DNA of 39,215 nt from Acidobacteriota bacterium (lineage in GTDB: Bacteria; Acidobacteriota; Terriglobia; Bryobacterales; UBA6623), in the NCBI GenBank assembly GCA_027624045.1, contig JAQBUE010000026.1, positions 1-39,215 of the forward strand. Reading direction: 5' to 3'. The notes beneath the pieces were generated by a model, which made no database searches, had not been told where the DNA came from, and saw only the letters and a program-made list of their open reading frames with translations. A program made the position numbers and the translations under genes. This document shows, one piece after another, positions 10,931 through 38,733 of this stretch. Position 1 is the stretch's first letter; the number at the start of each line of letters is the position of its first letter.

Positions 10931-10941
10931 GCCGAGCGCAA

Positions 10942-12888
10942 ATGAAGATCCGCGACAAAGCCACTCAAAACAGTGAACGCAAGTTCGCACCGGCCATCGC
11001 GGCTGTTTGCGCCCTAGCTCTGCTCATCCAAATCAACTGCGGCGGCCCCGTCACCGGCGATGTCGGCAAGCGTATCATCGTGCTCGGCATCGACGGCATG
11101 GACCCCAAATTCCTCGAAGCTCACTGGGATCAGCTTCCCAACCTCGACCGGCTGCGCCGCGAGGGCGACTTCAAATCCCTCGCCACCACCATCCCGCCGC
11201 AAAGTCCCGTCGCTTGGTCGAGCGTCATCACCGGACTCGACCCCGGCGGACACGGCATCTACGACTTCGTCCACCGCAACCCGTACTCGCGCATGCCGTT
11301 CTCATCCATGGCCGAGACGACCGAGGCCGGCAGCACGCTCGATATCGGCGACTGGGTGATTCCCCTCTCGTCCGCCGAAGTCAAACAGACGCGCCGCGGT
11401 GAAGCTTTTTGGCCGCATCTCACCGACGCCGGTATCCCGGCCAGTATCATCCGTATGCCGGCCAACTTCCCGCCCGCCGGTGAAGGGTCGCGCTCGCTCT
11501 CCGGCATGGGCACGCCCGACATGCATGGCACCTACGGCGAGTTCACCTTCTACACCGACGACCCGGAACGCAAGTCCGGAAATGTATCGGGCGGCGAAAT
11601 CGTGCGCCTTCCGGCGTTCCGTCATCACATCGAGCTGGAAATCAACGGCCCCGTCAATAGCTTCCTGAAAGACCACCCCGTAACAACCGTTCCCCTCACC
11701 GTGAACCGCGATCCCAGCGAGCCCATCGTGAGGTTCGATCTCGGCGAGGAGAGCTTCATCCTTAAAGAGGGTGAGTGGTCCGGCTGGCTGCGCGCAAGTT
11801 TCCCCCTGATCGGCGACCTGCAGAGCGCCTCGGGTATCTTCCGCGTCTTCCTGCGGCAGGTGCGGCCGCGCTTTGAACTTTACGTCACGCCCATTAACAT
11901 CGACCCCACCAGTGCGGCTCTCCCCATTTCAACTCCCGCTTCTTACAGCGCCGAACTGGCCGACGCCATTGGACTCTTTTACACCCAGGGCATGGCTGAA
12001 GACACCTCCGCCTACCGCCAAGGCGCTTTGAGCCTCGACGAATTCATGGAGCAAAGCCGCGACGTTCTCGAAGAGACACGCAGCATGTTGCGCTATGAGC
12101 TTTCGCAATTCAAGAGCGGACTCCTCTTCTTCTACGTTTCGAGCGTTGACCAGAATTCGCATATGCTCTGGGGACAGCACGACGACAAGCTGCTCGAAAT
12201 CTATCGCGAGACCGACAAGATGGTCGGCGAAGCGATGGAGCTGATCGACGACCAGACGACGCTGATCGTCATGTCCGACCATGGCTTCGAGCGCTTTGAC
12301 CGATCCGTGAACCTGAACACGCTGCTGCTACGCACCGGTTTTCTGGCGCTCGACGACCCGCGCAATACCGGCGGCGACGAGTTGTTCAAGCACGTCGATT
12401 GGTCCCGCACACGCGCTTACGCGATGGGCATCAACTCGCTCTACATCAACCGGCTTGGGCGTGAAGAGGGTGGCATCGTCGCCGAGGGCGAAGAGTTCCA
12501 ACAGACCATCGCGGAGCTCCGCAAGGCGCTACTTGCATTCCGTGACCCTGAAAACGGCGAGCAGCTGATCGAAGAGTTATACGAGTCAGAAAAAGTGTAT
12601 AAGGCCCTTCCCACCGAGTTCGCGCCGGATCTAATCGTCGGCTACCGTCCGCCCTATCGCGCGTCATGGGAAACAGGTCTCGGCGGCGTCCCCGCCCAAA
12701 CCGTTGTCGATAATGACGACGCCTGGATCGGCGACCATTGCATCGCCCCGCAATACGTGCCCGGCGTTCTGCTCAGTAATCGCAAAATTACTCTCGGCGA
12801 CCCCGGCCTCACCGACGTCCCTGTAACACTGTTGCGCGAGTTTGGCGTCGAGGTTCCCGGCGACATGATCGGACGCCCCTTGTTTTGA
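10942..12888 (+). CDS. Exported alkaline phosphatase family protein, paralogue of the preceding gene
   Basis: The 648-residue protein has an N-terminal hydrophobic segment (PAIAAVCALALLIQINCGG) that is a signal peptide or membrane anchor. The cysteine at its end could be lipidated, but QINC is a poor lipobox. The catalytic parts mirror the preceding gene: LGIDGMDPK, PPQSPVAWSSVITG, GHGIYDF, SSVDQNSHMLWGQ, MSDHGFERF and GDHCIAP. It lacks the two leading membrane helices of its neighbour. All metal ligands seem intact. It lies 33 bases after the previous gene on the same strand, so it probably belongs to the same transcript, with the palindrome between them. Confidence 0.9.
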   Translation: MKIRDKATQNSERKFAPAIAAVCALALLIQINCGGPVTGDVGKRIIVLGIDGMDPKFLEAHWDQLPNLDRLRREGDFKSLATTIPPQSPVAWSSVITGLDPGGHGIYDFVHRNPYSRMPFSSMAETTEAGSTLDIGDWVIPLSSAEVKQTRRGEAFWPHLTDAGIPASIIRMPANFPPAGEGSRSLSGMGTPDMHGTYGEFTFYTDDPERKSGNVSGGEIVRLPAFRHHIELEINGPVNSFLKDHPVTTVPLTVNRDPSEPIVRFDLGEESFILKEGEWSGWLRASFPLIGDLQSASGIFRVFLRQVRPRFELYVTPINIDPTSAALPISTPASYSAELADAIGLFYTQGMAEDTSAYRQGALSLDEFMEQSRDVLEETRSMLRYELSQFKSGLLFFYVSSVDQNSHMLWGQHDDKLLEIYRETDKMVGEAMELIDDQTTLIVMSDHGFERFDRSVNLNTLLLRTGFLALDDPRNTGGDELFKHVDWSRTRAYAMGINSLYINRLGREEGGIVAEGEEFQQTIAELRKALLAFRDPENGEQLIEELYESEKVYKALPTEFAPDLIVGYRPPYRASWETGLGGVPAQTVVDNDDAWIGDHCIAPQYVPGVLLSNRKITLGDPGLTDVPVTLLREFGVEVPGDMIGRPLF

Positions 12889-12926
12889 GTTCTTCAGCGC
12901 CCAGACACGCTAGGATGGGATCTACA

Positions 12927-12935
12927 CACTAGGAT
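12927..12935 (+). promoter_or_regulatory. Candidate -10 element; CTAGGAT occurs twice before the start
   Basis: CACTAGGAT ends six bases before ATG 12942, and CTAGGAT also occurs at 12910-12916. This is either an internal promoter within the cluster or a duplicated regulatory site. Confidence 0.3.
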
Positions 12936-12941
12936 TTAGCC

Positions 12942-13136
12942 ATGTTCGGACCTTCAATCAAACTCGACAAAGACCTCTACGACCGCATCAAACGCTGCTC
13001 CGACGCGGCCGGCTATTCCTCGCCCAAAGAGCTGATCCAGCACGTCCTCGAACGCGAGCTCGAAAAGATCGAAGTGGACGCGCGCTCCGACGAAGAAATC
13101 GTCAAGAAGATGCAGGGGCTCGGCTACATCGATTGA
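12942..13136 (+). CDS. Small ribbon-helix-helix-like protein
   Basis: The 64-residue protein has one short strand (SIKLDKDLY), then two helices (DRIKRCSDAAG and SPKELIQHVLERELEKI) in the order expected of a CopG/MetJ-type ribbon-helix-helix. It could be a dimeric DNA-binding regulator or an adaptor. The tail ends in KKMQGLGYID, which resembles the L-x-x-LGYI ending seen at the C-terminus of many sulfatase-family proteins. No toxin gene is next to it, so an antitoxin role has no support here. It sits inside the phosphatase cluster on the same strand, suggesting a cluster-specific role. Confidence 0.75.
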   Translation: MFGPSIKLDKDLYDRIKRCSDAAGYSSPKELIQHVLERELEKIEVDARSDEEIVKKMQGLGYID

Positions 13137-13167
13137 TCCACCCCTAAGACCGCCCGCCTAACCTCCC

Positions 13168-13986
13168 GTGGACTTCTTTAACCTCGTACTACGCACTGTG
13201 ATCGGCGGCATTTGCGGCCTCGGCATCGGCCTGCATCCGATGATCGGGATGACGCTCATCTCGTCCCTTACCGGCATCGGCATGTTGTGGGTCTTCGGCA
13301 GGACATCAAACCAGGACGCCATCGCGACAACCAAAAAACGTCTGCAAGCCTATCTACTCGAGATGCGGCTGTTCGGCGACGACATCGGACTCGTTTTTTC
13401 CGCGCAGAGGAAACTCATCTTCGGAAACGTTCGCTACATCGGCTTGATGATGAAGCCGATGATTTTTCTCACCGCGCCGCTGCTGCTTCTCCTCATTCAC
13501 ATGGACGCCTTCTACGGCGCGACGCCGCTCGTCATCGGCGAGCCCGCTGTCGTTACCCTGCAAGCCTCCGGACGATTCGGTACGAATGCCGCCGTACCCG
13601 AACTCGAAGCCCCCGCCGGCATCCGGGTAGAAACGCCCGGCGTTCGCGTCATCGAAAGCGGCCAAATGAGCTGGCGCATTCGCGCCGAGCAACCCGTCGA
13701 AGGTGATCTCAAATTCCGTTGGGGCGGCAAGGAGTGGACCAAGTCCGTCGCCTCCGGAGACCCCTTCCGCAACCTCTCCATCCGCCGCGTTACCGGCCTC
13801 TGGGATTCCCTCTTGAACGTCGGAGAAGATCGTCTAGCCCAAGACGAAGTCGACTGGATCGAAATCCGCTACCCAGCCGCCGAAGTCCCCCTAGCCGGCC
13901 TCAAGCTGCACTGGCTCATCTGGTTTTTCGTCATCTCGATGGTCGCCGCCTACGCCCTAAAGGGCTACTTCGGCGTGACCTTCTAA
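13168..13986 (+). CDS. Three-helix membrane protein with Oxa1/EMC3-like topology and an external beta domain
   Basis: The 272-residue protein starts at GTG. A long hydrophobic region at residues 5-43 is followed by a charged amphipathic hairpin (about 45-90, TTKKRLQAYLLEMRLFGDD...RKLIFGNVRYIG), a second helix (about 93-112, MKPMIFLTAPLLLLLIHMDAFYG), a beta-rich domain (about 120-240) and a last helix (about 248-266). A helix, a charged cytoplasmic hairpin and then a helix is the layout of Oxa1-superfamily proteins (YidC, EMC3, DUF106), but sequence identity is not evident, so this is a topological inference. It follows the ribbon-helix-helix gene by 31 bases and probably works with the two membrane or exported phosphatase-like proteins. 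Confidence 0.8.
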   Translation: MDFFNLVLRTVIGGICGLGIGLHPMIGMTLISSLTGIGMLWVFGRTSNQDAIATTKKRLQAYLLEMRLFGDDIGLVFSAQRKLIFGNVRYIGLMMKPMIFLTAPLLLLLIHMDAFYGATPLVIGEPAVVTLQASGRFGTNAAVPELEAPAGIRVETPGVRVIESGQMSWRIRAEQPVEGDLKFRWGGKEWTKSVASGDPFRNLSIRRVTGLWDSLLNVGEDRLAQDEVDWIEIRYPAAEVPLAGLKLHWLIWFFVISMVAAYALKGYFGVTF

Positions 13987-14519: not shown

Positions 14520-17303
14520 ATGCGAAGTTTCTTGCGCCTCGGTGGCGCGCTCGCCGTCGTCGCTGTTTCCGCTTGGCTCTGGCTAAGCCAACCCGACTCC
14601 TCAAACACGGCCGTAGCCCAAGCCTTCTCCGCCAACCAGCAAGCCTTCCTCATCCGCTTCGGCGTCAACGATACCCAACCTCGCAATTGGAGCGGCGAAG
14701 TCCGCGTCGAGAACGGACGCGTCGTCAATCTCGATCCGTGGCAATTCAGCAAAGGTGACGAGCTGCTCTCCGACTCCGCCTGGACTTGCGCCACAACCAC
14801 CGATACCTACTGGGACGCCCCCTGGGAGCGCAGCCTCGAAGGCACCAAGCGCCGCACCCGGCTCACCGCCAAAGGCGTCTTGCTGCGCATCGAAATGGCC
14901 GGTCCCGGCAAGATCAACATCCGGACCGCACAAGGTTCGTTCACCTTTAACCCCGAAGAGCTTTCCTGGTCCCGCCCCAAAACTTTCGCCGACGGACGCG
15001 TCGTCATCAGCCTCTCGCCGTCGCCCCAAAACCTTACCGAAGGCCCCGCCGCCGAAGACTATGTTGACGCCATCGAGTCATCAAAGGGCCAACGCTGGGT
15101 CGCCTACCAAACCTACGATGACGGCTCTGACCAGATCTGGATTCGCCGTGATGACGACGCCCCCGTCCCCCTGACCGACCCGGGACGCGATCTCTTCCGA
15201 GTCCAACTCGCCGAAGATTCCCAAGCACGCATCTGGGCCGTCTGGTCCGAGCAACGAGCCTCCAACTGGGACCTTTTCGCACGCGCTTTCGACGGCAATA
15301 GCTGGGGCGAAGAAACCCAACTCAGCACCGCTCCCGGCTCCGACATCTTTCACTCACTCGCCCGCGACGGCCAAGGCAATCTCTATCTCGTCTGGCAGGG
15401 CGTGCGCTCAGGCAACAGCGACATCTTCTTGCGAACCTATCGCGATGGCCGCTGGCAGCCGGAGGTTCAAGTCAGCGACGACCCCGCCAACGACTGGGAA
15501 CCGCAAGTCGCCGCCTCCAAAGACGGTGAAGTCTCGATCGTCTGGGACACCTACTCAAAAGGCAACTACGACGTCCTCATGAAGCAACTGCGCCGCGGAC
15601 GCTTCTCCGACGCCATCACCATCGCCGACTCTGATTCCTTCGAAGCTCGCGCCACCGCCCACTACGACTCCGGCGGCCGCCTCTGGCTCGCATGGGATGA
15701 AGGCGACGCCGACTGGGGCAAGGACTACGTGGCGGGCGCGCAGGACGCCGGCATGGGCCTGCTCCAGCGCCGCCAGGTTCGCGTCGCCACTTACAGCAAC
15801 GGCCGTCTCGAACAACTCCCCGGCAACCTCCCCGCCGCTCCGCCGGATGAAACCAGCCCAGTCTTCCAATCCCCGCGCCTCGCGGTCGACGGAAACGGCA
15901 ATCCATGGGTCTTCTTCCGCTACCGCACGCACACGCCCGTCGTTCAAGGCGAAGACAAGTTCCGTTCCATGTGGCGACTCGGAGCAACCAGCTACCAAAA
16001 CGGCGCATGGACGCCGCTCGTCCGCTTCCCCCTCGGCTACGGACGCATCGACATGCCCGTCTCGGTTTACACAGATTCCGGCGGCGACATCCAGGTCCAT
16101 TGGGCGAGCGACGGCCGGGAGTTCCCCGACGGCTTTCAGCGCGAGCAGAATCTTTTTGCGGCTGCTCTGACGGCCGACGCTCCGCCCGATAGCGCCCTCA
16201 CATTCGTTGCCTTCAAACCGTCAACTGACAAGTCCGCGCAAGTCCACCCAAACGAAACCACCGACGTTGCACGCCTGCGAAACTACCGAGCCGAGGTCGG
16301 CGGCAAAACCTACCGTCCCGTTCGCGGCGACATGCACCGCCACACCGATATGTCATGGGACGGTAATCGCGACGGCTCGCTCTTCGATGCCTACCGATAC
16401 GCGCTCGATGCCGCCGGACACGACTTCCTCGGCGTCGCCGACCATCAAGCCGGGGGAGAGGTTGAATACAGTTGGTGGATGATTCAGAAGGCCGTCGACC
16501 TGTTTACGATTCCCGGCAAATTCACACCGCTCTACGGCTACGAACGCAGCCGCGGTTATCCCAGCGGCCACCGCAACGCCATGTTTGCCCAACGCGGCGT
16601 GCCCGTTGTGAAGATGCTCGACGAAGAGCGCGAACGAAACAACGAGGTCGGCGTCGAGCATTTCTACGCAGACCTGCGCAAGAATCGCGGCGTTGTGATG
16701 AGCCACACCTCCGCCACCGGCGCCGGAACCGACTGGCGCGACAGCGATCCCGACGTCGAAACGCTCGTCGAAATCTACCAGGGCTACCGCCGCAACTACG
16801 AACATGAAGGCGCGCCGCGTTCGACCGATCGAGGCAGCCGTCCCGCCGGGTTCGTCTGGAAGGCCTGGGAGAAGGGGCTGAAACTGGGAGTGCAAGCTAG
16901 CTCCGATCACGTCTCAACTCACACATCCCACGGCATGATCTGGGTCGAGGACCTCAACCGCGAGAACATCATCGAAGCAATCCGCGCCCGCCACGCCTAC
17001 GCTGCTACGGACAACATCCTCGTCGACTTCCGCGTTAACGGCCGCCTCATCGGCGACGCGTTCGAAACCACGGAACGCCCCAAACTCGAAGCAAACATTG
17101 TGGGGACCGGGCTCGTGCGCAAAGTCGAGGTCATCAAAAACAACACCTATATCCACACTCAGAAGGGCGGCGGGCCCGAACTCTCCTTCACATATGTCGA
17201 CAACGATGTCCGCGAAGGCGAGAGCTACTACTACATCCGCGTTGAGCAGGAAAACGGCGAACTAGCGTGGGCGTCCCCTGTCTGGGTAACCTATAAGAAA
17301 TAG
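14520..17303 (+). CDS. Exported beta-propeller plus PHP-domain (DUF3604-like) protein
   Basis: The 927-residue protein has a signal peptide or anchor (residues 8-24, GGALAVVAVSAWLWLSQ). Residues about 170-560 hold propeller-like blades about 50 residues apart, with recurring SNWDLF, GNSDIF and GNYDVL. From about 600 a PHP metallohydrolase domain shows RGDMHRHTDMSWDG (HxH), FLGVADHQ, YGYERS, VMSHTSATG and VQASSDHVSTHTSHG, which together supply the usual metal ligands. The C-terminus is a small beta domain ending YYYIRVEQENGELAWASPVW, almost the same as the end of the DUF3604 protein at 32654. PHP domains hydrolyse phosphoesters in known cases. The substrate here is unknown, and the protein probably acts outside the cytoplasm. 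Confidence 0.88.
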   Translation: MRSFLRLGGALAVVAVSAWLWLSQPDSSNTAVAQAFSANQQAFLIRFGVNDTQPRNWSGEVRVENGRVVNLDPWQFSKGDELLSDSAWTCATTTDTYWDAPWERSLEGTKRRTRLTAKGVLLRIEMAGPGKINIRTAQGSFTFNPEELSWSRPKTFADGRVVISLSPSPQNLTEGPAAEDYVDAIESSKGQRWVAYQTYDDGSDQIWIRRDDDAPVPLTDPGRDLFRVQLAEDSQARIWAVWSEQRASNWDLFARAFDGNSWGEETQLSTAPGSDIFHSLARDGQGNLYLVWQGVRSGNSDIFLRTYRDGRWQPEVQVSDDPANDWEPQVAASKDGEVSIVWDTYSKGNYDVLMKQLRRGRFSDAITIADSDSFEARATAHYDSGGRLWLAWDEGDADWGKDYVAGAQDAGMGLLQRRQVRVATYSNGRLEQLPGNLPAAPPDETSPVFQSPRLAVDGNGNPWVFFRYRTHTPVVQGEDKFRSMWRLGATSYQNGAWTPLVRFPLGYGRIDMPVSVYTDSGGDIQVHWASDGREFPDGFQREQNLFAAALTADAPPDSALTFVAFKPSTDKSAQVHPNETTDVARLRNYRAEVGGKTYRPVRGDMHRHTDMSWDGNRDGSLFDAYRYALDAAGHDFLGVADHQAGGEVEYSWWMIQKAVDLFTIPGKFTPLYGYERSRGYPSGHRNAMFAQRGVPVVKMLDEERERNNEVGVEHFYADLRKNRGVVMSHTSATGAGTDWRDSDPDVETLVEIYQGYRRNYEHEGAPRSTDRGSRPAGFVWKAWEKGLKLGVQASSDHVSTHTSHGMIWVEDLNRENIIEAIRARHAYAATDNILVDFRVNGRLIGDAFETTERPKLEANIVGTGLVRKVEVIKNNTYIHTQKGGGPELSFTYVDNDVREGESYYYIRVEQENGELAWASPVWVTYKK

Positions 17304-22051: not shown

Positions 22052-23386
22052 CTAACCACCGGGCAAGGCCCGCAGTACCTCATGAATCTGCCCCAACACC
22101 CAATCCGTCTCCGTCTCTGAAATCACGTACGGCGGCATGAAATACAAAACGTTACCCAGCGGACGCAACAACACCCCGCGCCCCAAGAACTCCCCATAAA
22201 GCCGAGGCCCGATATCCGCCAGATACCCGCCGGCCGCGCTTGATTCCGCATCCTCAGTCAGTTCGACGATCCCCACGCCGCCAATCACCCGCACATCCCC
22301 CACGCACGCCAACGAACGCAACGGCTCCAGTCCAGCTCGCAGCTGCTTCTCGATCCCCGCGACGCGCTGCAGCGTGCCCTCTTCGCGAAACACATCCAGG
22401 CTCGCCAACCCCACCGCGCACCCCAGCGGATTCGCCGTGAACGAATGTCCGTGGAAAAAGGTCTTCGCTCGATCGTCGCTCAGAAAAGCCTCGTAGATGC
22501 TGTCCGTCATCGCCGTCGCCGCAAACGGCAAGTAGCCCGCCGAGAGTCCCTTCGACAAGCACATCAGGTCAGGACTCACCGGGCCATGCTCGGAAGCGAA
22601 CATCCGGCCCGTGCGTCCGAACCCCGTCATCACCTCGTCCGCGATCATCAGAGTCCCATGTTCGTCGCAAAGCTTTCGCACGCCTGACAAAAACTCACGA
22701 GGCCAAACGATCATCCCCCCCGCCGCCTGTAACATGGGCTCAACGATCACACCCGCAACCCGTCCGCCCTCGTCGCGCAGAATCCGTTCAAGATCCGCCA
22801 AACAATCAACAGCGCAACTCGCACGCTCCAGCCCTATGGGACATCGAAAGCAATAAGGTGCATGAGCCCGCGCCACCCGGAACAGCAATCCCTCGAACGA
22901 GAGAGTGAAGATCGACTCTTCGCTCACCGACATCGTCGCAACCGTGTCGCCGTGATAAGCGAACTTGAGCCCGACGAACAGCCGCCGCTCCGGCTCGCCG
23001 CGATTGCGCCAATACTGATAGGCCATCTTGAGCGCAACCTCGACCGCCGTCGAACCGTTATCGGAGTAGAAAATCCGGTTTAGCCCCGCGGGCAGAAGTT
23101 CCGTGAGCCGTTCCGCCAACTCAACCGCGGGACGGTGCGTGAACCCCGCGAAGATCACGTGCTCCAGTTCACCCGCCTGCCGGGTTAGCGCTTCGTTCAG
23201 CTTCGGGTGGCTATGCCCATGAATATTCACCCACCAAGACGAAATCCCGTCCAGAATCTTCCGGCCGTCCTCCGTATACAGATAGACGCCTTCGCCCCGA
23301 ACCACAGGGATCGGCGGCGGCGCTGTCTGCATCTGCGTATACGGATGCCACAGCCGCGCCAGGTCTCGCTCAACAAGGCTCGACAT
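22052..23386 (-). CDS. bioA: Adenosylmethionine-8-amino-7-oxononanoate aminotransferase
   Basis: This PLP enzyme transfers an amino group from S-adenosylmethionine to KAPA, giving DAPA, in biotin synthesis. The 444 residues match the family length. Signatures are LWHPYTQMQ at the start, DGISSWWVNIHGHSHP (substrate-site Trp pair), NGSTAVEVALKMAYQYW, the cofactor-binding Asp in LMIADEVMTGFGRTG and the PLP lysine in LMCLSKGLSAGYLPFAAT. It lies 20 bases after bioD in the bioBFDA operon and is cytoplasmic. Its lack of a KAPA-only (BioK) signature cannot be judged by eye, so a lysine-using variant is not excluded. Confidence 0.96.
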   Translation of the reverse strand: MSSLVERDLARLWHPYTQMQTAPPPIPVVRGEGVYLYTEDGRKILDGISSWWVNIHGHSHPKLNEALTRQAGELEHVIFAGFTHRPAVELAERLTELLPAGLNRIFYSDNGSTAVEVALKMAYQYWRNRGEPERRLFVGLKFAYHGDTVATMSVSEESIFTLSFEGLLFRVARAHAPYCFRCPIGLERASCAVDCLADLERILRDEGGRVAGVIVEPMLQAAGGMIVWPREFLSGVRKLCDEHGTLMIADEVMTGFGRTGRMFASEHGPVSPDLMCLSKGLSAGYLPFAATAMTDSIYEAFLSDDRAKTFFHGHSFTANPLGCAVGLASLDVFREEGTLQRVAGIEKQLRAGLEPLRSLACVGDVRVIGGVGIVELTEDAESSAAGGYLADIGPRLYGEFLGRGVLLRPLGNVLYFMPPYVISETETDWVLGQIHEVLRALPGG

Positions 23387-23406
23387 TTAGAGTTCCTGAC
23401 AGGAGT

Positions 23407-24063
23407 CTACCGCCAAAGATGTCCTGCCCTATCCAACTCGTCTCTCGCCCAATCTCCAACCACCGCCGCCGTCAGCTCACGAAACAGGGGCATTTCCGCG
23501 ATGACCCGCGTCCGGCCATAGTGCTCGATCGCGTGGCGGTTCTCCTCGTTTCGTTCTCCCACCATCACGACACCGGCCACTTTCAGCGACCGCTGTTTGA
23601 GGGCCTCCAGCGTCAACAAAGTGTGATTGATCGTCCCCACCGCCGTCCGCGCCACCACCAGCGCCGGCAAGCCAAGCCGCGCCATCCAGTCCGTCATTAA
23701 CTCTCGGTCGTTCAGCGGAACAAGCACTCCGCCCGCGCCCTCGACAATCCATGTCCGATCCGTCGCCAGCCTGCCCGCCAACGATTCTAAATCCGCCAAC
23801 GCGATCGTCGTCCCGCTCAGCCGTGCGGCCAGATGGGGCGAAACCGGATTCCGCAACCGCACACCCTCGTCGAAGATTTCCACCTCCGCGCAGTCGCCCA
23901 AATCTCTCACAACCGCCGTGTCGTCATCCTGCTCGATGCCGGTTTGCACCGGCTTCCAGTAGCCAAGAGGTCGCTCGTCGCGGTAGCGCTGCATCAACGC
24001 CGAGCAAACGATTGTCTTGCCGACGCCCGTGTCCGTCCCCGTTACGAAGAGGCCGCGCCGCAT
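23407..24063 (-). CDS. bioD: Dethiobiotin synthetase
   Basis: The 218-residue protein carries out the ATP- and CO2-dependent ring closure of DAPA to dethiobiotin. The N-terminal P-loop is [21 protein letters not shown] carries the conserved Lys for the DAPA carbamate, and WIVEGAGGVLVPLND is the family signature around the second metal site. Its start overlaps the end of bioF by 22 bases, suggesting coupled translation. Confidence 0.96.
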   Translation of the reverse strand: MRRGLFVTGTDTGVGKTIVCSALMQRYRDERPLGYWKPVQTGIEQDDDTAVVRDLGDCAEVEIFDEGVRLRNPVSPHLAARLSGTTIALADLESLAGRLATDRTWIVEGAGGVLVPLNDRELMTDWMARLGLPALVVARTAVGTINHTLLTLEALKQRSLKVAGVVMVGERNEENRHAIEHYGRTRVIAEMPLFRELTAAVVGDWARDELDRAGHLWR

Positions 24064-25208
24064 GCCACCTTCTCCGCCAAGGCCGCAACGACCAATGCCA
24101 CAAACGCCTCAAGGTCGGCCTCGTGTAATTTCGCATTCACCGAGATCCGCAGCCGTGCTGTGCCTTCGGGGACCGTGGGCGGACGGATCGCGCGAACATC
24201 GAAACCTTCTTGCTGAAGCACCGTCGCCACCTCTACCGCTCGCTCGTTATCGCCCAGAAAGATGGGGATGATCTGCGATTCTCCATCAGTTCCGCGGATA
24301 CCCGCCTCCGACAACAACGTGCGCAAACGCCGCGCAAACACCAGTGTCTTCGCGCGCAGTTCGGGCTGCTCGGCGATCACATTCAAAGCGGCATCGATTG
24401 CCGCCGCGACCGAAGGCGGCGACGCCGTCGTGAATACGAACGTGCGAGCCCGCTGCACCAGAAAGTCGATCGCCCAGCGCGGTCCCGCCACGAACGCCCC
24501 GCTCACACCCAAGGCTTTTCCCGCCGTGTTAACGGAAAGGAACACATCCGCGTCAATGCCCGATCGCTCAATCAGTCCGCTGCCGCGCTCGCCATACACA
24601 CCAACCGCGTGCGCCTCATCAACGATCAATCTCGTATCCGTCTCGCGGCAAAGCTCCGCGTACTCGGCGAGCGGCGCAATATCGCCATCCATGCTGAACA
24701 ACGATTCGGTAACCAGGAACCGCTGCCCCTCTCCCGGCTCGGAGCGCCGCGTCGATCCCAACAGCGAGCGCAACGCCGTCACATCGCAATGCGGGAAGAT
24801 TACCCTCCGCGCGCGCCCCAGACGCATACCGTCAATCAAACTGGCATGATTCAACTCATCCGAGAAGACGACGTCACCCTCCTCGAGAAATGTCGATAGA
24901 ACGCCCAAGTTTGCCGCGTAGCCGCTCGAGAAGTAGAGGCTTGCCTCATTGCCCTTCCACGCGGCGAAACGCTCTTCAATCTGCGCAAAGCCGGCCCGCT
25001 CGCCTCTGAGCAGCCGCGATCCCGTGGAACCCACACCCTCGTGCAGCACCGCCTGAGCCATCGCCGCGCGCACCAGTCGATGGTCGGCCAAGCCCAAGTA
25101 ATCATTGGAAGAGAGATCGATTCCCGCGGGTCGCCGGAGTTTTCTCGTTAGACCTTTCGCCTCGATTTCGTCGAGGGCAAGTCTGGTTCGTTGTTCGAGA
25201 TCAGCCAT
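24042..25208 (-). CDS. bioF: 8-amino-7-oxononanoate synthase
   Basis: This PLP enzyme condenses pimeloyl-ACP/CoA with L-alanine to KAPA. ATG 25208 (MADLEQR) is chosen over 25223, giving an 8-base overlap with bioB. Signatures are [24 protein letters not shown], the glycine-rich [30 protein letters not shown] and the PLP lysine in [14 protein letters not shown]. The length of 388 residues fits. No bioC, bioH or bioI gene for pimelate supply is present in the window. Confidence 0.95.
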
Positions 25209-26280
25209 GATTGGCTGTCGCAACAGTGGAGTTTTCGATCAGGGCGCTGCCGTGAGGCGCCGCCGTCACCGGCTCTTCCATGAGCCGCATCCCCAGCTTA
25301 TCGAGAAGCTGCCGGTCGCGGTCCATCTCAGGGTTGGGCGTGGTCAGCAACCGATCCCCCATGAAGACCGAATTCGCCCCCGCTACGAAACACAGCGCCT
25401 GGGCCTCATCCGACATCGAGAGGCGTCCCGCACTCAATCGCACCATCGAGGCCGGCATCAAAATCCGCGCCGCCCCGATCATCCGCACCAGCTCTAGATG
25501 ATCTGCCTGTTTCTGGTTCGCAAGCGGCGTTCCCTCCACGCTCACAAGCATATTGATCGGCACGCTCTCGGGGTGAGGTTTCTGATTCGCCAATTCACGC
25601 AGCAGTCCCACACGATCCTGCCGGCTCTCGCCCATTCCGATGATGCCGCCGCAGCATACCGTGACTCCCGCTTGCCGCACTCGCTCCAGCGTCTCCAGCC
25701 GTTCTTCGTAACGCCGCGTCGTGATGATCTCGCCGTAGAACTCAGGCGATGTATCGAGATTATGGTTGTACGCGGTGAGTCCTGCCTCGGCAAGCTGATC
25801 CGCCTGCCGCTGCGTCAGCATCCCGAGCGTGCAACAGGCCTCCATGCCCAACCGCCGCACGCCCCGCACCATCTCCACCACCTGCTCAAACTCTTCTCCC
25901 TCAGGCGCATCTCTCCACGCGGCGCCCATGCAAAAGCGGGTCGCACCGTTGCCGTGCGCCGTCTCTGCCATTCGTAGCGTCTCGGCAACGCTCATCAAAC
26001 CCGCCGACTGTACGTCGGTCTTGTAATGTGCCGACTGCGGGCAGTACGCACAATCCTCCGGGCATCCGCCGGTCTTGATGCTCAACAGCGAGCAGCCCTG
26101 TACCTCCGCTGGGTTGTGAAACACCCGATGCACCGCCTGGGCCCGAAACAATAGCTCCGGCAACGGTAGGTCAAGAATGGATGAGATTTCCGGCGCCTGC
26201 CAGTCATGGCGCAACGCTGGCTTGGGGTATGAGGTCACGTCAGCAGTATCCAGTGTGGGAGACCTTACATTATGCGACAC
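25201..26280 (-). CDS. bioB: Biotin synthase (radical SAM)
   Basis: This enzyme inserts sulfur into dethiobiotin. The radical-SAM cluster motif is CPEDCAYC (CxxxCxxC). [12 protein letters not shown] and [15 protein letters not shown] are typical BioB blocks, and the auxiliary-cluster residues C and R (MVRLSAGR) are present. The track start is GTG 26280. A second GTG at 26238 ([13 protein letters not shown]) fits the usual N-terminal length better and has a -10-like GGATACT just before it, so the true start is uncertain. It is the first gene of the operon and is divergent from the DUF2061 gene. I found no BirA- or BioR-type operator. Confidence 0.96.
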
Positions 26281-31367: not shown

Positions 31368-32339
31368 CTAGCGGTTATAAACCGGCGCCGGTCCTCGCAA
31401 CTGTTTCCAAACCAAATCACAGGCTTCGATGCATGATTCACTGAGCCGCGGCGTGTCGAACGCCTCAAGGTTTTCCTCGAGTTGTTCCAGTCGAGACGCT
31501 CCCAAAATGATGCAGTGAGCCTCCTCCTGTTGTAGAATCCAGGCGAAAGCAAGCTGAACCAAACTTAGCCCGGCCTCCGCGGCAATTGCTCGAAACTCGT
31601 CAACGGCGCCAAAGAACGGATCGTGCCAGTAGCGCTTCAGGTACATCTCATTTCCGTCGAACCGAGTGCCCGGCACAGGTGCCGCCTCTTTGTGTTGCTT
31701 TCCCGTCAGCATGCCCCCCGCTAACGGGTTGTAGCAGACATTGCTGATCCCAGCCCTTTTCGTATACCCAACATACTCCTGCTCGATGCCGCGTGCCGTC
31801 AGGTTGTACATCGGTTGCGCCAGCCAGGGCTTGGCGTAGCCGGCCTTTTCGCAGATACTGTGGATTTCACATATCTGCCAGGCGCTGTAGTTGGATGTCG
31901 CCGGGTACCGAATCTTACCTTCGCGGCGCAGCTCGTCCATCACATCGAGAGTTTCTTCAATGGGGACGCCGGAGTCAGGCTGATGGAGATAGTAGACGTC
32001 AAGGTAGTCAGTATTCAGGCGCTGCAAAGACGCTTCGAGCGCCTTGCGAATCGCATCGCGGGACAGTCCGGCGTACTCGACGGGTTTACCCATCGCCCCG
32101 CGGGCCTTGCTCGCCAGGATGACATCCTTGCGCCGCGCGCCCAATACTCGCCCTACGATCCGCTCCGACTCTCCTTGATTGTAGACATTGGCTGTATCGA
32201 AAAAATTGATCCCCGCATCGAAGCAACGGTCGGTAATCCTTTTCGATTCCTCTAGGTCTGCCTGAGAACCGAACGTCATGGTCCCCATGCAGGCCCGCGA
32301 GACTTCTAAGTCTGTATGTGCGATTCTAACCCGGTCCAC
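31368..32339 (-). CDS. Aldo/keto reductase
   Basis: The 323-residue (alpha/beta)8 NAD(P)H-dependent reductase starts at GTG 32339 with AGGAGG eight bases upstream. The catalytic tetrad is visible: Asp in INFFDTANVY, Tyr in the same block (NVYNQGESE), Lys in VILASKARG and His in DVYYLHQPD. The later NPLAGGMLTGK and LEQLEENLEAF are typical of the YajO/PdxI-like subgroup. RYPATSNYSAWQ replaces the usual GxSN. It is divergent from the AT-hook gene and probably independent of the TRAP operon. The physiological substrate is unknown. Confidence 0.94.
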   Translation of the reverse strand: MDRVRIAHTDLEVSRACMGTMTFGSQADLEESKRITDRCFDAGINFFDTANVYNQGESERIVGRVLGARRKDVILASKARGAMGKPVEYAGLSRDAIRKALEASLQRLNTDYLDVYYLHQPDSGVPIEETLDVMDELRREGKIRYPATSNYSAWQICEIHSICEKAGYAKPWLAQPMYNLTARGIEQEYVGYTKRAGISNVCYNPLAGGMLTGKQHKEAAPVPGTRFDGNEMYLKRYWHDPFFGAVDEFRAIAAEAGLSLVQLAFAWILQQEEAHCIILGASRLEQLEENLEAFDTPRLSESCIEACDLVWKQLRGPAPVYNR

Positions 32340-32653: not shown

Positions 32654-34918
32654 CTATTGTTTGGTTCGAGCGTGAACCCAGATAGGACTTGACCACGCCC
32701 GATGACCATCCTCCTGCGTAACGGCTATGTAGAGCGGGTTATCTTGACCTGCCTTGAGTCGTATCGTCTTTTCGAACCGGCATCCCCGGTAGGGATTAAC
32801 TTCCGGCAGGCGAAAGACCCGCACCCGGCGCCCTAGTTTTCCGGCGTCGTAGACAAGATCCTCCGCTCCGATCTCACCCACGGGTAGTTCGAACTTCACG
32901 AGTTCGGTTTCGAATCGAAGCGTGCCGCGGGAGGTGTCTTCCAAAATAGCGTCAAATCCTCCGAAGTTGCCGGTGGTGATTGCCTCCCACCGCAACCCGC
33001 TCTCGTCTGTCCTTTTGAGCTTCTTATCCGGGTTTATGAAATTGATAGGATGAGCGCGCAGGATGGCGTTGTCTGCAAACCACGCCTCGCCATCCCAAAC
33101 CGTCTGTCGAAACCGTCCGCGATACTCCGCACCTTCCCAGACGACGCGAATCCGGTTGCCACCGGCAGTCAACTCGGCGGCCGGTCGGACCACGCTTACC
33201 GTCTCCATCCCGTTTCGAACTTCAATCCGTTCAATCGGCGCGGACCCGAGCACATCGACGCACAGCCGGACTTCCTGATCCGACGTTTCGAGAACTTCGC
33301 CCATCTCGGCCCGGCACGCTTCGCGGCTCTCAGTGGGTCCCAACTTCGGATCATCGTCGAAAACCGTCGCCGGACTTTCGAATTCGGCATGGATATCCAC
33401 AATCATGCGTGCGCCCGTCGTTCCGTAATGACGCCTCTTTCGCAGGCAATCGAACCACGTATCGCGGTCCAGCCGCGGCATCAAATAGCAGGTCAGCCCC
33501 CCGTAGGCGCCAAACCACGACGCCCCCGGATAGCTCGCTCCGGGCCGCCCTTTGTGCCCGTCGCTATGGCATACAATGCCCACGCGGTAGCCCTTTTCGA
33601 TGGCATCCGCCAGCAGCCACTCGAACGTGCCCCACGCTGAGTGGATCTCGACGGCTCGCTCGAAACGCCCGTCATGGGCCATCTTGATGTCCGCATACCG
33701 TCCGCCAACGTGCGCGATCACAGCGCAATCTTCCCCAGCCTTCGTTAGCGCCTCGAACAGATCGGCGGCCGTATGGCAGTCCGTATCAACATCCGACAGA
33801 TCTTCGAGCAGCGCATGTGACGACCGCCGAATCGTTTCCCCTTCGCGCCGGAAGAAGACGTTCCGGTCGCCGCCCAGCGCCGTGTTCCCAGACCATTCAT
33901 ATCCCGGCACCGCCACAAAGCGGCCCGCTTCGTCGAAGTCACGCGTCACACGGTTGAGCTCATCCCAGAAGTCTTGCGTGATCTGGAAGTCGTTTCCTTG
34001 GTGGCCGCATATATCGAGGAACGCCCGGTCGCGCGCGAAGGTAAAGTATTCGCCTACCGAATTCGTGCCAACCGTCTCCTCGGTTTGCCCGTGCAGGTCA
34101 CCCCAGTAGGGAAGCAACTCCGCCGACTCCACGATCCTGAGCGGATTGGTCTCGGCGAGTAACACTCCGTCCGCATCCAGCAAATCAATCGTTACGTCAG
34201 CAGGTTCGGGAACTGTTAGGTTCTCCAGAAAGAACCCGAACTCGCCCTTTCGGTAACTCACTTCCTCAGGCAGATTCGCCACGGGAAATGAGGCGCGCAA
34301 GCGCAGCCGGCCCTCGGCCTGGTCCGTCGGATTGCCCCAACGATCCTCCGCTTTCATACAGAGCCGGAACGGCTCGCCTACCCGCCGCATCGTCGGCAGC
34401 ACCGCTTTCCAAACCGCCGCCGGCCCCGGTACGATCGCGATCACCGGCGACGCGGGCAGCTCGACATAGTTGTAAGTCGCAATTGCATCCACCAATACTC
34501 GAAACTCGAACGTCGACTCACAGAACGTTTGCAGCCGCAGTCCCGGCGAGCCCTCGCGCGGGTCGCCGAAACGCACCACGATCCGATCACCCTCCTTCAT
34601 GAAGCCATTGACGACCTTGATATAGAGGGTCTTGTCCCAGGGCCGCAGGTTCCCTTTCGGGTCATAGCGTGTTTCGAGCACTGCGTTGTTGCTCGCCTCG
34701 ACCGTTACATAGTTCGCCCCCTTCGGGTCATCGAACTGCAACCGGCCCATGTCGGCCGCGAATCGAAACACGATCTTCAAACTCGCCGTATCGTCCATTC
34801 CAAAGCGGCCCGCCGTATAGGTGAGCGTGAACGAAGCATAGGAACCGGCCTCGAACGATCCGGCAGGCGAGATTACGGCGCTGCCCATCTCCTCGGGCAG
34901 ATAGGTGGAATGAGGCAT
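32654..34918 (-). CDS. DUF3604 PHP-like metalloprotein
   Basis: ATG 34918 (MPHSTYLPEE) is preferred to the TTG at 34954. The N-terminal 280 residues are beta domains (ASFTLTYTAGRFGMDDTASL). The PHP-like core has YWGDLHGQTEETVGTNS, DICGHQGNDF, VPGYEWSGNT, CAVIAHVGG, EIHSAWGTFEW and GIVCHSDGHKGRPG, carrying the expected His/Asp/Glu ligands. The C-terminus ends LYIAVTQEDGHRAWSSPIWV, homologous to the end of the protein at 14520. There is no signal peptide, so it is likely cytoplasmic. It is the last gene of the TRAP/ComA-like operon, 109 bases after the permease, which suggests it processes the imported compound. The reaction is unknown. Confidence 0.9.
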   Translation of the reverse strand: MPHSTYLPEEMGSAVISPAGSFEAGSYASFTLTYTAGRFGMDDTASLKIVFRFAADMGRLQFDDPKGANYVTVEASNNAVLETRYDPKGNLRPWDKTLYIKVVNGFMKEGDRIVVRFGDPREGSPGLRLQTFCESTFEFRVLVDAIATYNYVELPASPVIAIVPGPAAVWKAVLPTMRRVGEPFRLCMKAEDRWGNPTDQAEGRLRLRASFPVANLPEEVSYRKGEFGFFLENLTVPEPADVTIDLLDADGVLLAETNPLRIVESAELLPYWGDLHGQTEETVGTNSVGEYFTFARDRAFLDICGHQGNDFQITQDFWDELNRVTRDFDEAGRFVAVPGYEWSGNTALGGDRNVFFRREGETIRRSSHALLEDLSDVDTDCHTAADLFEALTKAGEDCAVIAHVGGRYADIKMAHDGRFERAVEIHSAWGTFEWLLADAIEKGYRVGIVCHSDGHKGRPGASYPGASWFGAYGGLTCYLMPRLDRDTWFDCLRKRRHYGTTGARMIVDIHAEFESPATVFDDDPKLGPTESREACRAEMGEVLETSDQEVRLCVDVLGSAPIERIEVRNGMETVSVVRPAAELTAGGNRIRVVWEGAEYRGRFRQTVWDGEAWFADNAILRAHPINFINPDKKLKRTDESGLRWEAITTGNFGGFDAILEDTSRGTLRFETELVKFELPVGEIGAEDLVYDAGKLGRRVRVFRLPEVNPYRGCRFEKTIRLKAGQDNPLYIAVTQEDGHRAWSSPIWVHARTKQ

Positions 34919-35027
34919 GATATTTTCGTTGACCTGTTTCGCGGCGCCGCCCAATACGGGCCACTAGTAGACAGTAGCGCAGTTCCCGGAAATCGCCTCT
35001 GCGGTGACAGGAAGGGTCTGCACGCGC

Positions 35028-36902
35028 CTACAACGAGATACGTGTTTCCCCTGGCCTGTCACCCCGTCGCGGTAACGCAAACAACGTCGCCGCTCCGATG
35101 ATTCCGCCGCAGGCCGACACCCAAACGTGCGGCCAGACCAGCATAACGCCCGCCGCGAACAACGCCGCCCGCGCCGCCGTCGGAACCCGCGTCCGGAAGA
35201 ATCCCTCCAGTGCGATCGCCCAAACATAAATCCCTAAAGTGCAGCTGCCAACGTGAAGCACAATCTCCTGCCACTCGCCGATCAACAATAACGCCGGCCC
35301 GTAGACGAACGCGAATGGCAGCAGAAACGTGATCAGTCCCAGTTGGATCGCCTTGAACCCCGTTTGTATCGGGTCGGTCCCCGCAATCCCCGCCGCCACA
35401 TAAGCTCCCGTGCAGACCGGCGGCGTGATGGCCGAAAGAATCGCGAAATAGAACAAGAAAAGGTGTGCCGCGATCGCCGACACGCCGAGACTTGTCAGCG
35501 TTGTAGGGATCAATGTCGCCAATACCACGTAGGCCGCCACCGTCGGCAGCCCCATCCCCAATACAATGCACGCGATCATCGTCAGCAGCAGCGTCGCGAA
35601 AAGGTTTCCCTGTCCGATGCTCTCAATCAGATACGTGATTCGCAGGTTCAGGCCCGTCGCCGTCATCACTCCAACGATGATGCCCGCACCGGCGCAAATC
35701 GGCGTCAGCACCAGCATGCCGTGAATCGCGGTTCGAAACGCCCGGTCGAACCCTGCCACGTCAAGCCGGGTCTTGGGCCGCGCGAAACTCACCGCCGCCG
35801 CGCAAGCCACCGCTATAAACGCCGCGTACATCACACTGAACTGCAGCGCCAGCAGCACTACCAGCACCACAATCGGCAGCAGCATGTTGCCCCGCTTCGC
35901 CAGTTCGCCGCTCAGGCTCGGTATCTCATCTCGCCGAATCGGCAGCACGCCGTCTTTCACCGATCGAAAGTGAACAATCATCAGCACCGAAAAAAAGAAG
36001 AGCAACGCCGGTACGATCGCATGTAGCATCAGCTCGGCGTACGAGATGTTGAGATAGTCGATCATCACGAACGCCGCCGCGCCCATGATTGGCGGCATCA
36101 ACTGTCCTCCCGATGACGCCAGCGCCTCGACCGCCGCCGCGAATCGCGGGTCGTATCCCGAGCGCATCATCATCGGAATCGTGACCGCCCCCGTCGTCGC
36201 GACGTTCGCCACCGTTGCGCCCGTAATCATCCCCATCAGCCCTGAACTCACGACCGCGATTTTCGCCGGCCCGCCCACAAACCTCCCGGCAATCACCTTG
36301 CCGATATTCATGAACATCTCCGCGCCACCTGTCGCAGTCAAGAATGCCCCGAACAAGATGATCACCACAATGAACGTCGCGCACACACCCAGAGGTGTGC
36401 CAAATACGCCGAACGTTCCATAGAAGATGATGCTGACGACATCCTCGACAGTCAAGCCGCCGTGCCGCAACATCTCGCCCGGTACCCACGGCCCGCCGAT
36501 CGCGTACGCCAGGAACAGCAACAGGACTCCCGCTACCGCCCAACCGACCGTTCTCCGCACCGCCTCGATGATCAGTAACAGCCCTGCCGCCCCAACCGCC
36601 ACGTCAAACGCGCTAATGAAGGGCTCCGAGTAAAGGCGCTCATAATCGAACAGCGTCCAGCCCATCGCCAGCGCCGTCAGCACAGTCAGCGCCAGCCCCA
36701 GCGCCGTCTCGGCCGTCTTGCTCCGCGTAAAGTTCGAAGGACTCTGCAGGAAAACGAGTGGCAATATCACCAGCAGGAACACGCCCCGCTGAATCGGTGC
36801 CTGGAACGGCCCCGTCGCACCCGTGTAGAGCGCGAAGGCGCAACCGCCCCATATCAGGGCCGTCGTCAGGTACCGCGAAATGCTTTCAAGCAGGGTAGGC
36901 AA
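35028..36902 (-). CDS. TRAP transporter fused permease (4TM/12TM, DctQM type)
   Basis: The 624-residue integral membrane protein combines the small (DctQ) and large (DctM) TRAP subunits, as is usual for TAXI-type systems. Many hydrophobic helices are present. Signature blocks are GGPAKIAVVSSGLMGMITGATVANVATTGAVTIPMM, SSGGQLMPPIMGAAAFVM and IVLGMGLPTVAAYVVLATL. It imports an organic anion by Na+ or H+ symport, delivered by the binding protein encoded just upstream (24 bases between genes). The C-terminus has extra hydrophobic helices. The substrate can be guessed only from the operon (see the ComA-like gene). Confidence 0.95.
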   Translation of the reverse strand: MPTLLESISRYLTTALIWGGCAFALYTGATGPFQAPIQRGVFLLVILPLVFLQSPSNFTRSKTAETALGLALTVLTALAMGWTLFDYERLYSEPFISAFDVAVGAAGLLLIIEAVRRTVGWAVAGVLLLFLAYAIGGPWVPGEMLRHGGLTVEDVVSIIFYGTFGVFGTPLGVCATFIVVIILFGAFLTATGGAEMFMNIGKVIAGRFVGGPAKIAVVSSGLMGMITGATVANVATTGAVTIPMMMRSGYDPRFAAAVEALASSGGQLMPPIMGAAAFVMIDYLNISYAELMLHAIVPALLFFFSVLMIVHFRSVKDGVLPIRRDEIPSLSGELAKRGNMLLPIVVLVVLLALQFSVMYAAFIAVACAAAVSFARPKTRLDVAGFDRAFRTAIHGMLVLTPICAGAGIIVGVMTATGLNLRITYLIESIGQGNLFATLLLTMIACIVLGMGLPTVAAYVVLATLIPTTLTSLGVSAIAAHLFLFYFAILSAITPPVCTGAYVAAGIAGTDPIQTGFKAIQLGLITFLLPFAFVYGPALLLIGEWQEIVLHVGSCTLGIYVWAIALEGFFRTRVPTAARAALFAAGVMLVWPHVWVSACGGIIGAATLFALPRRGDRPGETRISL

Positions 36903-36926
36903 AGGAAGAAAACCAGGAGCGCAACT

Positions 36927-37931
36927 CTACCATGAATCCCAAACTCCCTGCTCACGGTAGTACCTCTCCGCGCCGGGGTGATACGGCAACGGTTTCATCT
37001 GCGCCGCTGATGCCAGGTCCGCCTCGCCCTCTTCTTTCCACCAAGGTAGTGACGCTTCGACCTCGTCCCAGTTGTCGAACAGCGTCTTCGTCATGCCGTA
37101 GACCAGATCCTCCGGCAGGTCGCCCCGGACCAATAGACACTGGTGAAACCCAATCCCGCGCAGCTTAGGACGGTCAAACACCGGCTCCCCCAACTCGTCC
37201 AGCACGAACGACGATTCGGCGGCCAGCAGCTTCTGCAGCCCTTCCTGCTCGGGCTCGACGAAATCAATCTCCGTGCCGATCTCGCGCGCCGCAAAAATCG
37301 GAGACAAATGTCCGCGATTGCTCCGCGAGTATCCGAACGCAATTGCATCGACCTGCCTGTTCGCCAAAGCTTCCTGCCCATCCGTCCGCTCGATGTAGAG
37401 GAACTCAGTGTTCTCGCGCGTCACACCGAAATATTTGAGGATGCGCTCGGCGATCACTTCCTCTCCCGTCCCCCGGCCGCCGATCACGACGCTGCGCCCG
37501 ATCAAATCCGAGTAGCTCTTGATGTCGCTCACCGCCACGACGCGAAACAAATGCGTCCCCAGCTTCATCCAGACCTGGGCATTGCGATAGTCAATCGGGA
37601 TCAACTCGTCCTTGGCGAAATGAGCCTCGCGCCGATAGGCGTTCTCGAGATCAAACCGGAAACACCGTCCGCCGTCGATCCGCCCGGCCGCCACTCGCTT
37701 CACGTTGCCGACCGACATTCCCTTGCCGATCACGCCATTCGCGATCACGCCCGGCATCTTCTGCGTCAGCACCTTTGACAGGATCGAAACTTCGGTGAAG
37801 TACCGCCCCTGTGGCCCCGCACCCGCCAGCGTGATCAGGCGGACATCTTTCGCCGCCACGCCGCAGCCAACCTCCAGTAGAGCCGCAAAGAGCAAACAGA
37901 ACGGTGTGCATACGTCAACGAGCCGCCGCAT
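36927..37931 (-). CDS. TAXI family TRAP transporter solute-binding protein
   Basis: The 334-residue exported binding protein has a signal sequence (LLFAALLEVGCGVAA) with a cysteine that could be lipidated, although EVGC is not a good lipobox. Mature signatures of the TAXI family are ITLAGAGPQGRYFTEVSILSKVL, MSVGNVKRVAAGRIDGG, YSDLIGRSVVIGGRGTGEE and VDAIAFGYSRSN. It captures an anionic ligand outside the membrane and passes it to the fused permease. The gene starts one base after the ComA-like stop and precedes the permease by 24 bases. Confidence 0.94.
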   Translation of the reverse strand: MRRLVDVCTPFCLLFAALLEVGCGVAAKDVRLITLAGAGPQGRYFTEVSILSKVLTQKMPGVIANGVIGKGMSVGNVKRVAAGRIDGGRCFRFDLENAYRREAHFAKDELIPIDYRNAQVWMKLGTHLFRVVAVSDIKSYSDLIGRSVVIGGRGTGEEVIAERILKYFGVTRENTEFLYIERTDGQEALANRQVDAIAFGYSRSNRGHLSPIFAAREIGTEIDFVEPEQEGLQKLLAAESSFVLDELGEPVFDRPKLRGIGFHQCLLVRGDLPEDLVYGMTKTLFDNWDEVEASLPWWKEEGEADLASAAQMKPLPYHPGAERYYREQGVWDSW

Positions 37932-37932
37932 C

Positions 37933-38733
37933 TTAGCGTTCCCTCCGCGCCGGGCCCACCACGCCCAGCCCCACTCGCAATGCCTCCGTCTCGATAATGT
38001 CGTCAGGCATCACGTTCGCTATGTTTACATCCGGACCGAACTCCGTCACCAGCAACTTCTTCACATCGTGAATCTCCGACAATGACACTCCGCTGATCCA
38101 CGGGCCCGGCAGCTCAAACAGCACCCGGTCGAGATCCAAATCATCACGGCACGCCCGCAGCAGATCCGCGTTCACCACCCCTTGCTCAATCAACTCCGCG
38201 CCTTCCACGAGCAACAACTCCGCGCCCGCTGCAAAGCAGTCCCGCGCCTGCGCGACTAGGTCGTCGGCCGCGTTCTTTTCGCTCTTCGAGCCCACTTCGC
38301 CGAACACCGTTAGCCCCTTGTCGCGAGCCATCGTAATCTGCTCCCGCCGCTCTTTGGGCGACAGCGGAATACAGTTGTCCGAGACCTCGACCACCTCGAA
38401 CCCGAGACGCTTCGCCTCATCGAAAAACAGCGGTAACGCTTGCGCCCCTTCGGTCGCGAATACATATTCTTGAAACTGCCCGCCGAGAAACGGCCGCACG
38501 CCGTGCTTCTTATATAGCTCCAGCTTCGCCCGGATCTGATGCTCCTGATAGAGGCGCGAGGTTCCGGTAGCGATCTTCGCTAAGTCGACATGAGCGCCCG
38601 CGATATCGAGGATATCCTTCTGCCGCCCCAGCCCCAACCCCCAATCGATCATCATCGTGAACCCGCGCGCGCGCGGCTTCGTCCGCGAACGTCTCGGCGG
38701 CAGCGACACAAACGCAAAAGGTTCCGGGGTCAT
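37933..38733 (-). CDS. Phosphosulfolactate synthase (ComA)-like TIM-barrel protein
   Basis: The 266-residue protein is a divergent PF02679 member. Family-like blocks are MMIDWGLGLG, LAKIATGTSRLY, GGQFQEYVF, EVVEVSDNCIPLSPKER, FGEVGSKSE, LLLVEGAELIEQG and DVNIANVMPDDIIETEALRVGLG. Known ComA adds sulfite to phosphoenolpyruvate to make phosphosulfolactate, for coenzyme M in archaea; bacterial relatives make sulfolactate. Differences from the canonical pattern (VSDNCI for VSDGTI, VEGAELIE for VEARES, the C-terminal GLGVVG for GLR) make a changed substrate likely. It is the first gene of a four-gene operon with TAXI-TRAP and DUF3604. TGGCATACT ends 11 bases before its ATG. Confidence 0.85.
   Translation of the reverse strand: MTPEPFAFVSLPPRRSRTKPRARGFTMMIDWGLGLGRQKDILDIAGAHVDLAKIATGTSRLYQEHQIRAKLELYKKHGVRPFLGGQFQEYVFATEGAQALPLFFDEAKRLGFEVVEVSDNCIPLSPKERREQITMARDKGLTVFGEVGSKSEKNAADDLVAQARDCFAAGAELLLVEGAELIEQGVVNADLLRACRDDLDLDRVLFELPGPWISGVSLSEIHDVKKLLVTEFGPDVNIANVMPDDIIETEALRVGLGVVGPARRER

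Follow-up and report, generated by a model that had tools for sequence, protein, structure and literature searches.

A divergent ComA-family enzyme, a TAXI-TRAP transporter and a DUF3604 protein in an acidobacterial operon: a candidate module for uptake and breakdown of an anionic organic acid

The sequence analysed here (the window) is a contig of 39,215 nucleotides (39 kb) belonging to a 5.5-Mb draft genome in 342 contigs, from an Acidobacteriota bacterium which, judging by isolate names, is probably sponge-associated. Genes for a ComA-like enzyme, a TAXI solute-binding protein, a fused TRAP permease and a DUF3604 protein were identified in that order (Table 1), separated by gaps of 1, 24 and 109 bases, respectively. 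Order, strand and spacing were as given in the first-pass annotation, and the profile matches agreed with its family names. Its description as a group of four genes was incomplete, since it overlooked both an aldo/keto reductase (AKR) gene downstream of the DUF3604 gene and the two-module structure of the array described below. With the AKR included, the array is a five-gene operon on the minus strand. Two starts are given for the DUF3604 gene: ATG at 34918 is the start used for the sister proteins, while TTG at 34954 gives the longer open reading frame. Matches resembling promoters or terminators were no more numerous in this region than in shuffled sequence.

Table 1. Genes of the operon, in order of transcription
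Feature	Position	Strand	Evidence
ComA-like enzyme, PF02679, non-biosynthetic subfamily	37933-38733	-	PF02679 194 bits, E 3e-57; subfamily from TIGR03849 score (169.9 bits, below cut-off of 280), EGAEL and FELPGPWISG motifs, alignment and tree
TAXI-family TRAP solute-binding protein	36927-37931	-	TIGR02122 130 bits, cut-off 84
Fused TRAP permease	35028-36902	-	TIGR02123 593 bits, cut-off 320
DUF3604 protein	32654-34918 (ATG) or 32654-34954 (TTG ORF)	-	PF12228 46 bits, cut-off 20
Aldo/keto reductase (AKR)	31368-32339	-	PF00248 244 bits

Both sister species carry all five genes. The ComA-TAXI-TRAP genes were 79-86% identical to those of the window and the DUF3604-AKR genes 72-77%, the AKR adjoining DUF3604 in each case (72-73%). 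In the sister species these two groups sit on different contigs, and the window species has them side by side; the window array is therefore regarded as the union of two modules. No other window gene among those tested adjoined either module in the sister species.

The ComA-like protein had been called a divergent member of the phosphosulfolactate synthase family, and this was borne out. Its match to PF02679 was full-length (positions 4-240 of 243, cut-off 25 bits), and it fell short of the ComA equivalog model TIGR03849; a Legionella family member was also narrowly under that cut-off (276.8 bits). In a tree of 48 rows the window protein was placed in a clade of 19 rows (support 98/90), apart from the biosynthetic clade of 15 rows (support 100/98) which contains M. 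jannaschii ComA, B. subtilis YitD and members from coenzyme M biosynthesis. It grouped with neither archaeal ComA, YitD nor XcbB1. The acid/base-type positions D30, K53, E116, E146, K150, E177, E207 and N240 were kept in the alignment, K150 aligning with K137 of M. jannaschii ComA, a proposed catalytic base, and the motifs RE(S/A)G and PxKxQQ of biosynthetic members were replaced by the two motifs listed in Table 1. Based upon these kept positions and replaced motifs, the protein may retain enolate-type chemistry with an altered substrate. ComB (PF04029) had been claimed to be absent, and it was indeed missing from the window genome and from eight others carrying a ComA-like gene (0/9), in searches which detected the positive controls. 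Genes for ComC, ComDE and XcbC/D/E were not found in the neighbourhood of the window gene. Public records annotate proteins of the window clade as 'phosphosulfolactate synthase', a label which looks wrong. A structure model built from three sequences reached a pLDDT of 51. A search of viral contigs revealed no ComA-like relative and one DUF3604 protein.

The TAXI protein adjoins the fused permease and both scored above their cut-offs, which identifies the pair as a TAXI-TRAP transporter. In VcGluP, Y45 and Q93 are the key determinants of glutamate binding and arginine takes no part (PMC11574862). Upon alignment to 8s4j and 1us5, Y44 of the window protein corresponded to Y45, F91 to Q93 and H127 to E125; with the tyrosine kept and Q93 replaced, it does not class as a VcGluP-type glutamate-binding protein. 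In addition, R43 was found at the position of V44 and R92 at the residue following Q93, and both sister species were alike in this. Since the amino-group-binding Q and E are missing and R43 and R92 are present, an amino-acid ligand is disfavoured, and a ligand bearing an extra negative charge fits this low-identity alignment.

Nine residues of the DUF3604 protein (D286, H288, D314, N321, D322, H415, E436, D465 and H467, counted from the TTG at 34954) were invariant across 19 sequences, and divergent members carry an HxH form. These residues look like a PHP/amidohydrolase-type (PHP/CehA-like) metal site. The score against the CehA/McbA model NF038032 was 24 bits (cut-off 80), a profile search of the PDB revealed no solved relative detectable by sequence, and the structure model had a pLDDT of 32; neither this model nor that of the ComA-like protein was good enough for a fold search. 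Phosphatase activity, suggested at first pass, is possible; hydrolysis of an ester or amide is equally likely. In the literature searched, DUF3604 was almost absent, and nothing combined phosphosulfolactate synthase with a TRAP transporter.

The adjacency survey proposed at first pass revealed that the arrangement is not unique to the window genome: apart from the modules in the sister species, the ComA-like/DUF3604 pair recurs in 10 alphaproteobacterial loci and, together with TAXI-TRAP genes, on a haloarchaeal plasmid. A conserved cluster was found at seven loci in six genomes of one alphaproteobacterial order, that of the SZUA-8 metagenome-assembled genome, with the order GntR, ComA-like, SsuA-like binding protein, TauB-like ATPase, two permeases, TauD, DUF3604 and sulfatase. 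One of the seven loci, near a contig end, is without the sulfatase, and at another (L057, G622 C31) TauD is reduced to a C-terminal remnant. In SZUA-8 itself DUF3604 lies immediately upstream of the ComA-like gene, with FAAH, SDR, IlvD/EDD dehydratase and MlrC genes beyond; in genome G1024 the two are separated by one MBL-type gene, and on a Chelativorans plasmid both lie within one cluster. The plasmid of Natrinema halophilum holds fused TRAP, TAXI, ComA-like and DUF3604 genes within ~16 kb, where genes for two LLM oxidoreductases and one TauE/SafE exporter also lie; a sulfite oxidase gene (SorT-like, under the equivalog cut-off) and a sulfate exporter gene flank this stretch. Local identity to the window was 33% for its TRAP permease and 26% for its binding protein; its ComA-like protein was 28% identical. 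The last sits on a long branch that falls outside the window clade, so that this gene set may have arisen by convergence. Two further features were observed among these loci: a single in-frame TAG lies inside DUF3604 at L060/L117 (G448 C18), and genes for the large and small subunits of AcnX (aconitase X) lie upstream of the alphaproteobacterial cluster in three loci (L059 at 11816-13500, L057 and L061). AcnX subunit genes are also found immediately beside DUF3604 at L158 (G1106; 4789-6434).

Based on an alignment search for the DUF3604 clade, with the line at a score of at least 700 bits drawn after the scores were seen, a matching DUF3604 was present in 17 of the 18 genomes with a ComA-like protein of the window clade versus 6 of the 29 without. 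Fisher's test gave p = 5e-7, or 2e-4 for unlinked cases only and ~1e-3 with lineages collapsed, the 29 negatives being the non-random listed negatives of the same searches and kinship being only partly controlled. The pairing exceeds chance, as its recurrence in several unrelated lineages indicates.

Organosulfur genes neighbour the pair in two independent lineages, the alphaproteobacterial order and Natrinema. For the alphaproteobacterial TauD the best match was taurine dioxygenase 3pvj (186 bits), with RdpA-type aryloxyalkanoate dioxygenases close behind at 172 bits; the binding protein scored 46 bits against SsuA_fam, which is below the cut-off, and the sulfatases have an intact CVPAR motif. 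A sulfatase gene adjoins the ComA-like gene in G787, TauE/SafE genes adjoin DUF3604 copies in G1129, and distant DUF3604 genes lie beside ssuD/sfnG/msuE or soxC. Sulfur keywords were counted by eye in 5 of 11 plasmid DUF3604 neighbourhoods versus 0 of ~9 control windows (p ~0.03), with a control-window TusA and one LLM gene excluded from the matches; this is weak support, the count having been made by eye and the p value being what it is. In the Bryobacterales, TauD was considered as part of the pathway and rejected, the best match per genome being 35-40% like the alphaproteobacterial TauD with no sulfonate genes adjoining; sulfite-oxidase-family genes are present there and were set aside as evidence because the family is common.

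A scan of open reading frames and profiles across 31.3-38.8 kb of the window detected no sulfite-handling or sulfonate-specific gene. Likewise, no sulfur gene lies beside the pair in Chelativorans, G1024 or SZUA-8, where the neighbours are instead peptide-type ABC, FAAH, SDR or dehydratase genes. Many DUF3604 relatives without a ComA-like partner adjoin TTT, TRAP or CitMHS carboxylate importers, again with no sulfur gene. The suggestion that the ComA-like enzyme runs in the breakdown direction, or on a different substrate, stood in part: the gene surroundings suggest catabolism, with importers, GntR/IclR regulators, dehydratases and oxidoreductases among them, and organosulfur genes lie around several of the relatives, but the operon in the window and the three loci just named hold nothing specific to sulfur.

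We tentatively prefer to read the array as a module that takes up and degrades an organic acid of strong negative charge. On this reading the acid would most likely be a sulfonate and the ComA-like enzyme probably a lyase. We infer the substrate class, the direction, the sequence of reactions and the parts played by the DUF3604 protein and AKR as follows. The TAXI-TRAP transporter would import a small, strongly anionic acid, most likely an organosulfonate such as a hydroxy- or di-acid carrying a sulfonate group, or a conjugate of such an acid. Once this is inside the cell, the DUF3604 protein, as a cytoplasmic metallohydrolase, would cut it at an ester, amide or comparable bond, and the AKR would adjust an oxo or hydroxy group. 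The ComA-like TIM barrel would then employ the enolate chemistry of its family in the elimination direction; its products would be sulfite and an acid, either unsaturated or oxo, that enters central metabolism. This proposal draws upon the linkage and co-occurrence of the ComA-like and DUF3604 proteins, the organosulfur neighbours, the kept acid/base positions, R43 and R92 of the TAXI protein and the absence of ComB. Against it, sulfite might in fact be released by the TauD and LLM neighbours where these are present, the Natrinema ComA-like protein is distant and ungrouped, TauE/SafE spans carriers of many anions, and the sulfur-free loci and carboxylate importers noted above point elsewhere. 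A more far-reaching version is doubtful: that the window clade of ComA-fold enzymes represents a new type of C-S lyase, which desulfonates an imported sulfonate, with DUF3604 as the first-step hydrolase, in a pathway common to Acidobacteriota, Alphaproteobacteria and haloarchaea. It is the recurrence of the two proteins together in unrelated microbes that leads us to suspect an undescribed pathway.

The sulfonate reading is favoured, narrowly, over catabolism of a sulfur-free carboxylate or conjugate, a serious competitor also held tentatively, in which the ComA-like protein, with its nucleophile or leaving group changed, would be a hydro-lyase, C-O lyase or isomerase and DUF3604 would open an ester, amide or lactone. 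Such a role would suit the importers which DUF3604 relatives flank (TTT, TRAP, CitMHS and peptide ABC), the neighbouring AcnX, IlvD/EDD, FAAH and SDR genes, all known from sugar-acid or hydroxy-acid pathways, the replaced ComA motifs, and an operon in the window without a sulfur gene. It is at odds with the most conserved cluster of close relatives, with its SsuA-like, TauB-like, TauD and sulfatase genes, and with the archaeal cluster and its sulfite exporter and sulfite oxidase. Synthesis rather than breakdown seems improbable; here the ComA-like enzyme would join sulfite to an enol acid, and DUF3604 would replace ComB as phosphatase, to give sulfolactate or a similar sulfonate. This is the known direction of ComA, ComB is absent while DUF3604 has PHP-like metal motifs, and the Natrinema and alphaproteobacterial clusters hold possible sulfite-releasing genes (LLM, TauD); yet the tree sets the ComA-like protein apart from biosynthetic members, two canonical motifs are lost, nearly every linked locus has an importer, and some genomes possess the window-type DUF3604 without a ComA-like gene.

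That the DUF3604-AKR genes were joined to ComA-TAXI-TRAP by chance or by an assembly artefact is very unlikely. The different contigs of the sister species and the fragmented state of the window genome would allow it, but genomes assembled independently and finished plasmids show the pair linked as well, and its members co-occur when unlinked. Least probable of all, and hardly credible, is an ordinary ComA in coenzyme M or sulfolactate biosynthesis: PF02679 membership speaks for it, whereas the sub-cut-off equivalog score, the position outside the biosynthetic clade, the lack of ComB and the lack of adjoining XcbA/C/D-type genes, unlike at L009, L093, L097 and L098, speak against it.

Among known systems, ComA (M. 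jannaschii 1qwg; B. subtilis YitD 1u83) shares with the window protein the full-length Pfam family, the acid/base positions and the K137-equivalent lysine, whereas the window protein belongs to a separate, sub-cut-off clade with replaced motifs, lacks ComB and is transporter-linked. XcbB1-type ComA (Xanthobacter Py2, Mycolicibacterium NBB4, Methylocystis) is likewise bacterial, operonic and of PF02679, but adjoins XcbA- or lyase-family genes and groups with archaeal ComA. The glutamate importer VcGluPQM (8s4j) has a TAXI protein beside a TRAP permease, as in the window, where the Y45 equivalent is kept and F91/H127 stand for Q93/E125 in addition to R43 and R92. Alphaproteobacterial relatives share with TauABCD/SsuABCD an SsuA-like binding protein, a TauB-like ATPase and a TauD-family dioxygenase and add ComA-like, DUF3604 and sulfatase genes; the window operon has no Tau gene. 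The SuyAB sulfolactate sulfo-lyase route, which employs C-S elimination from a C3-sulfonate and TauE sulfite export (e.g. PMC12421959), would be a functional analogue of the proposed pathway, but its lyase is a different, two-component enzyme and no suyAB-type genes are present in the window operon. With the CehA/McbA carbaryl hydrolases DUF3604 shares metal-site motifs and a weak profile similarity, far under the model's cut-off and with no solved relative by sequence.

The two proteins form a conserved two-enzyme core within an uptake/breakdown module whose function is undescribed so far, and through their pairing both acquire a common role open to experiment. Were the sulfonate reading correct, uncultured Acidobacteriota, Alphaproteobacteria and haloarchaea would gain a route for recycling sulfur and carbon.

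Other PF02679 members were encountered in varied contexts. On a plasmid of Arthrobacter sp. ERGS1:01 (L008, 7452-16127), a ComA-like gene of the window clade (37% to the window) is flanked by a CocE/NonD hydrolase and by thioredoxin reductase, thioredoxin and UGSC (seleno)protein genes, and an ABC importer is also there. A Legionella lytica plasmid (L102, 2859-6487) encodes a 970-aa protein with a ComA domain (277 bits) behind a fatty-acyl-AMP-ligase-like region; the gene adjoins ComB and an aminotransferase and possibly functions in sulfonolipid-type biosynthesis. Other subfamilies (L095, L096, L099, L100, L101, L046, L047) lie with MmgE/PrpD or MmgE/PrpD-looking genes, often with tripartite tricarboxylate transporters. 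Acidobacteriota from other families (L040-L045) have ComA of the biosynthetic clade, and several of these genes adjoin one for a ~330-aa protein without an NCBIfam family match, near amidohydrolase-looking genes.

Elsewhere in the window, the plus strand at 14520-17303 encodes another DUF3604/CehA-McbA-like protein, a distant one with 927 aa (PF12228 26 bits; NF038032 59.7 bits, below cut-off). Upstream of it are a sulfatase-like ORF (7889-8749) and two type I phosphodiesterase genes (8746-12888). Genes for a class III aminotransferase, an AAA_26 (BioD-type) protein, a class I/II aminotransferase and a radical SAM protein with BATS were identified at 22052-26280 on the minus strand and are apparently for biotin synthesis.
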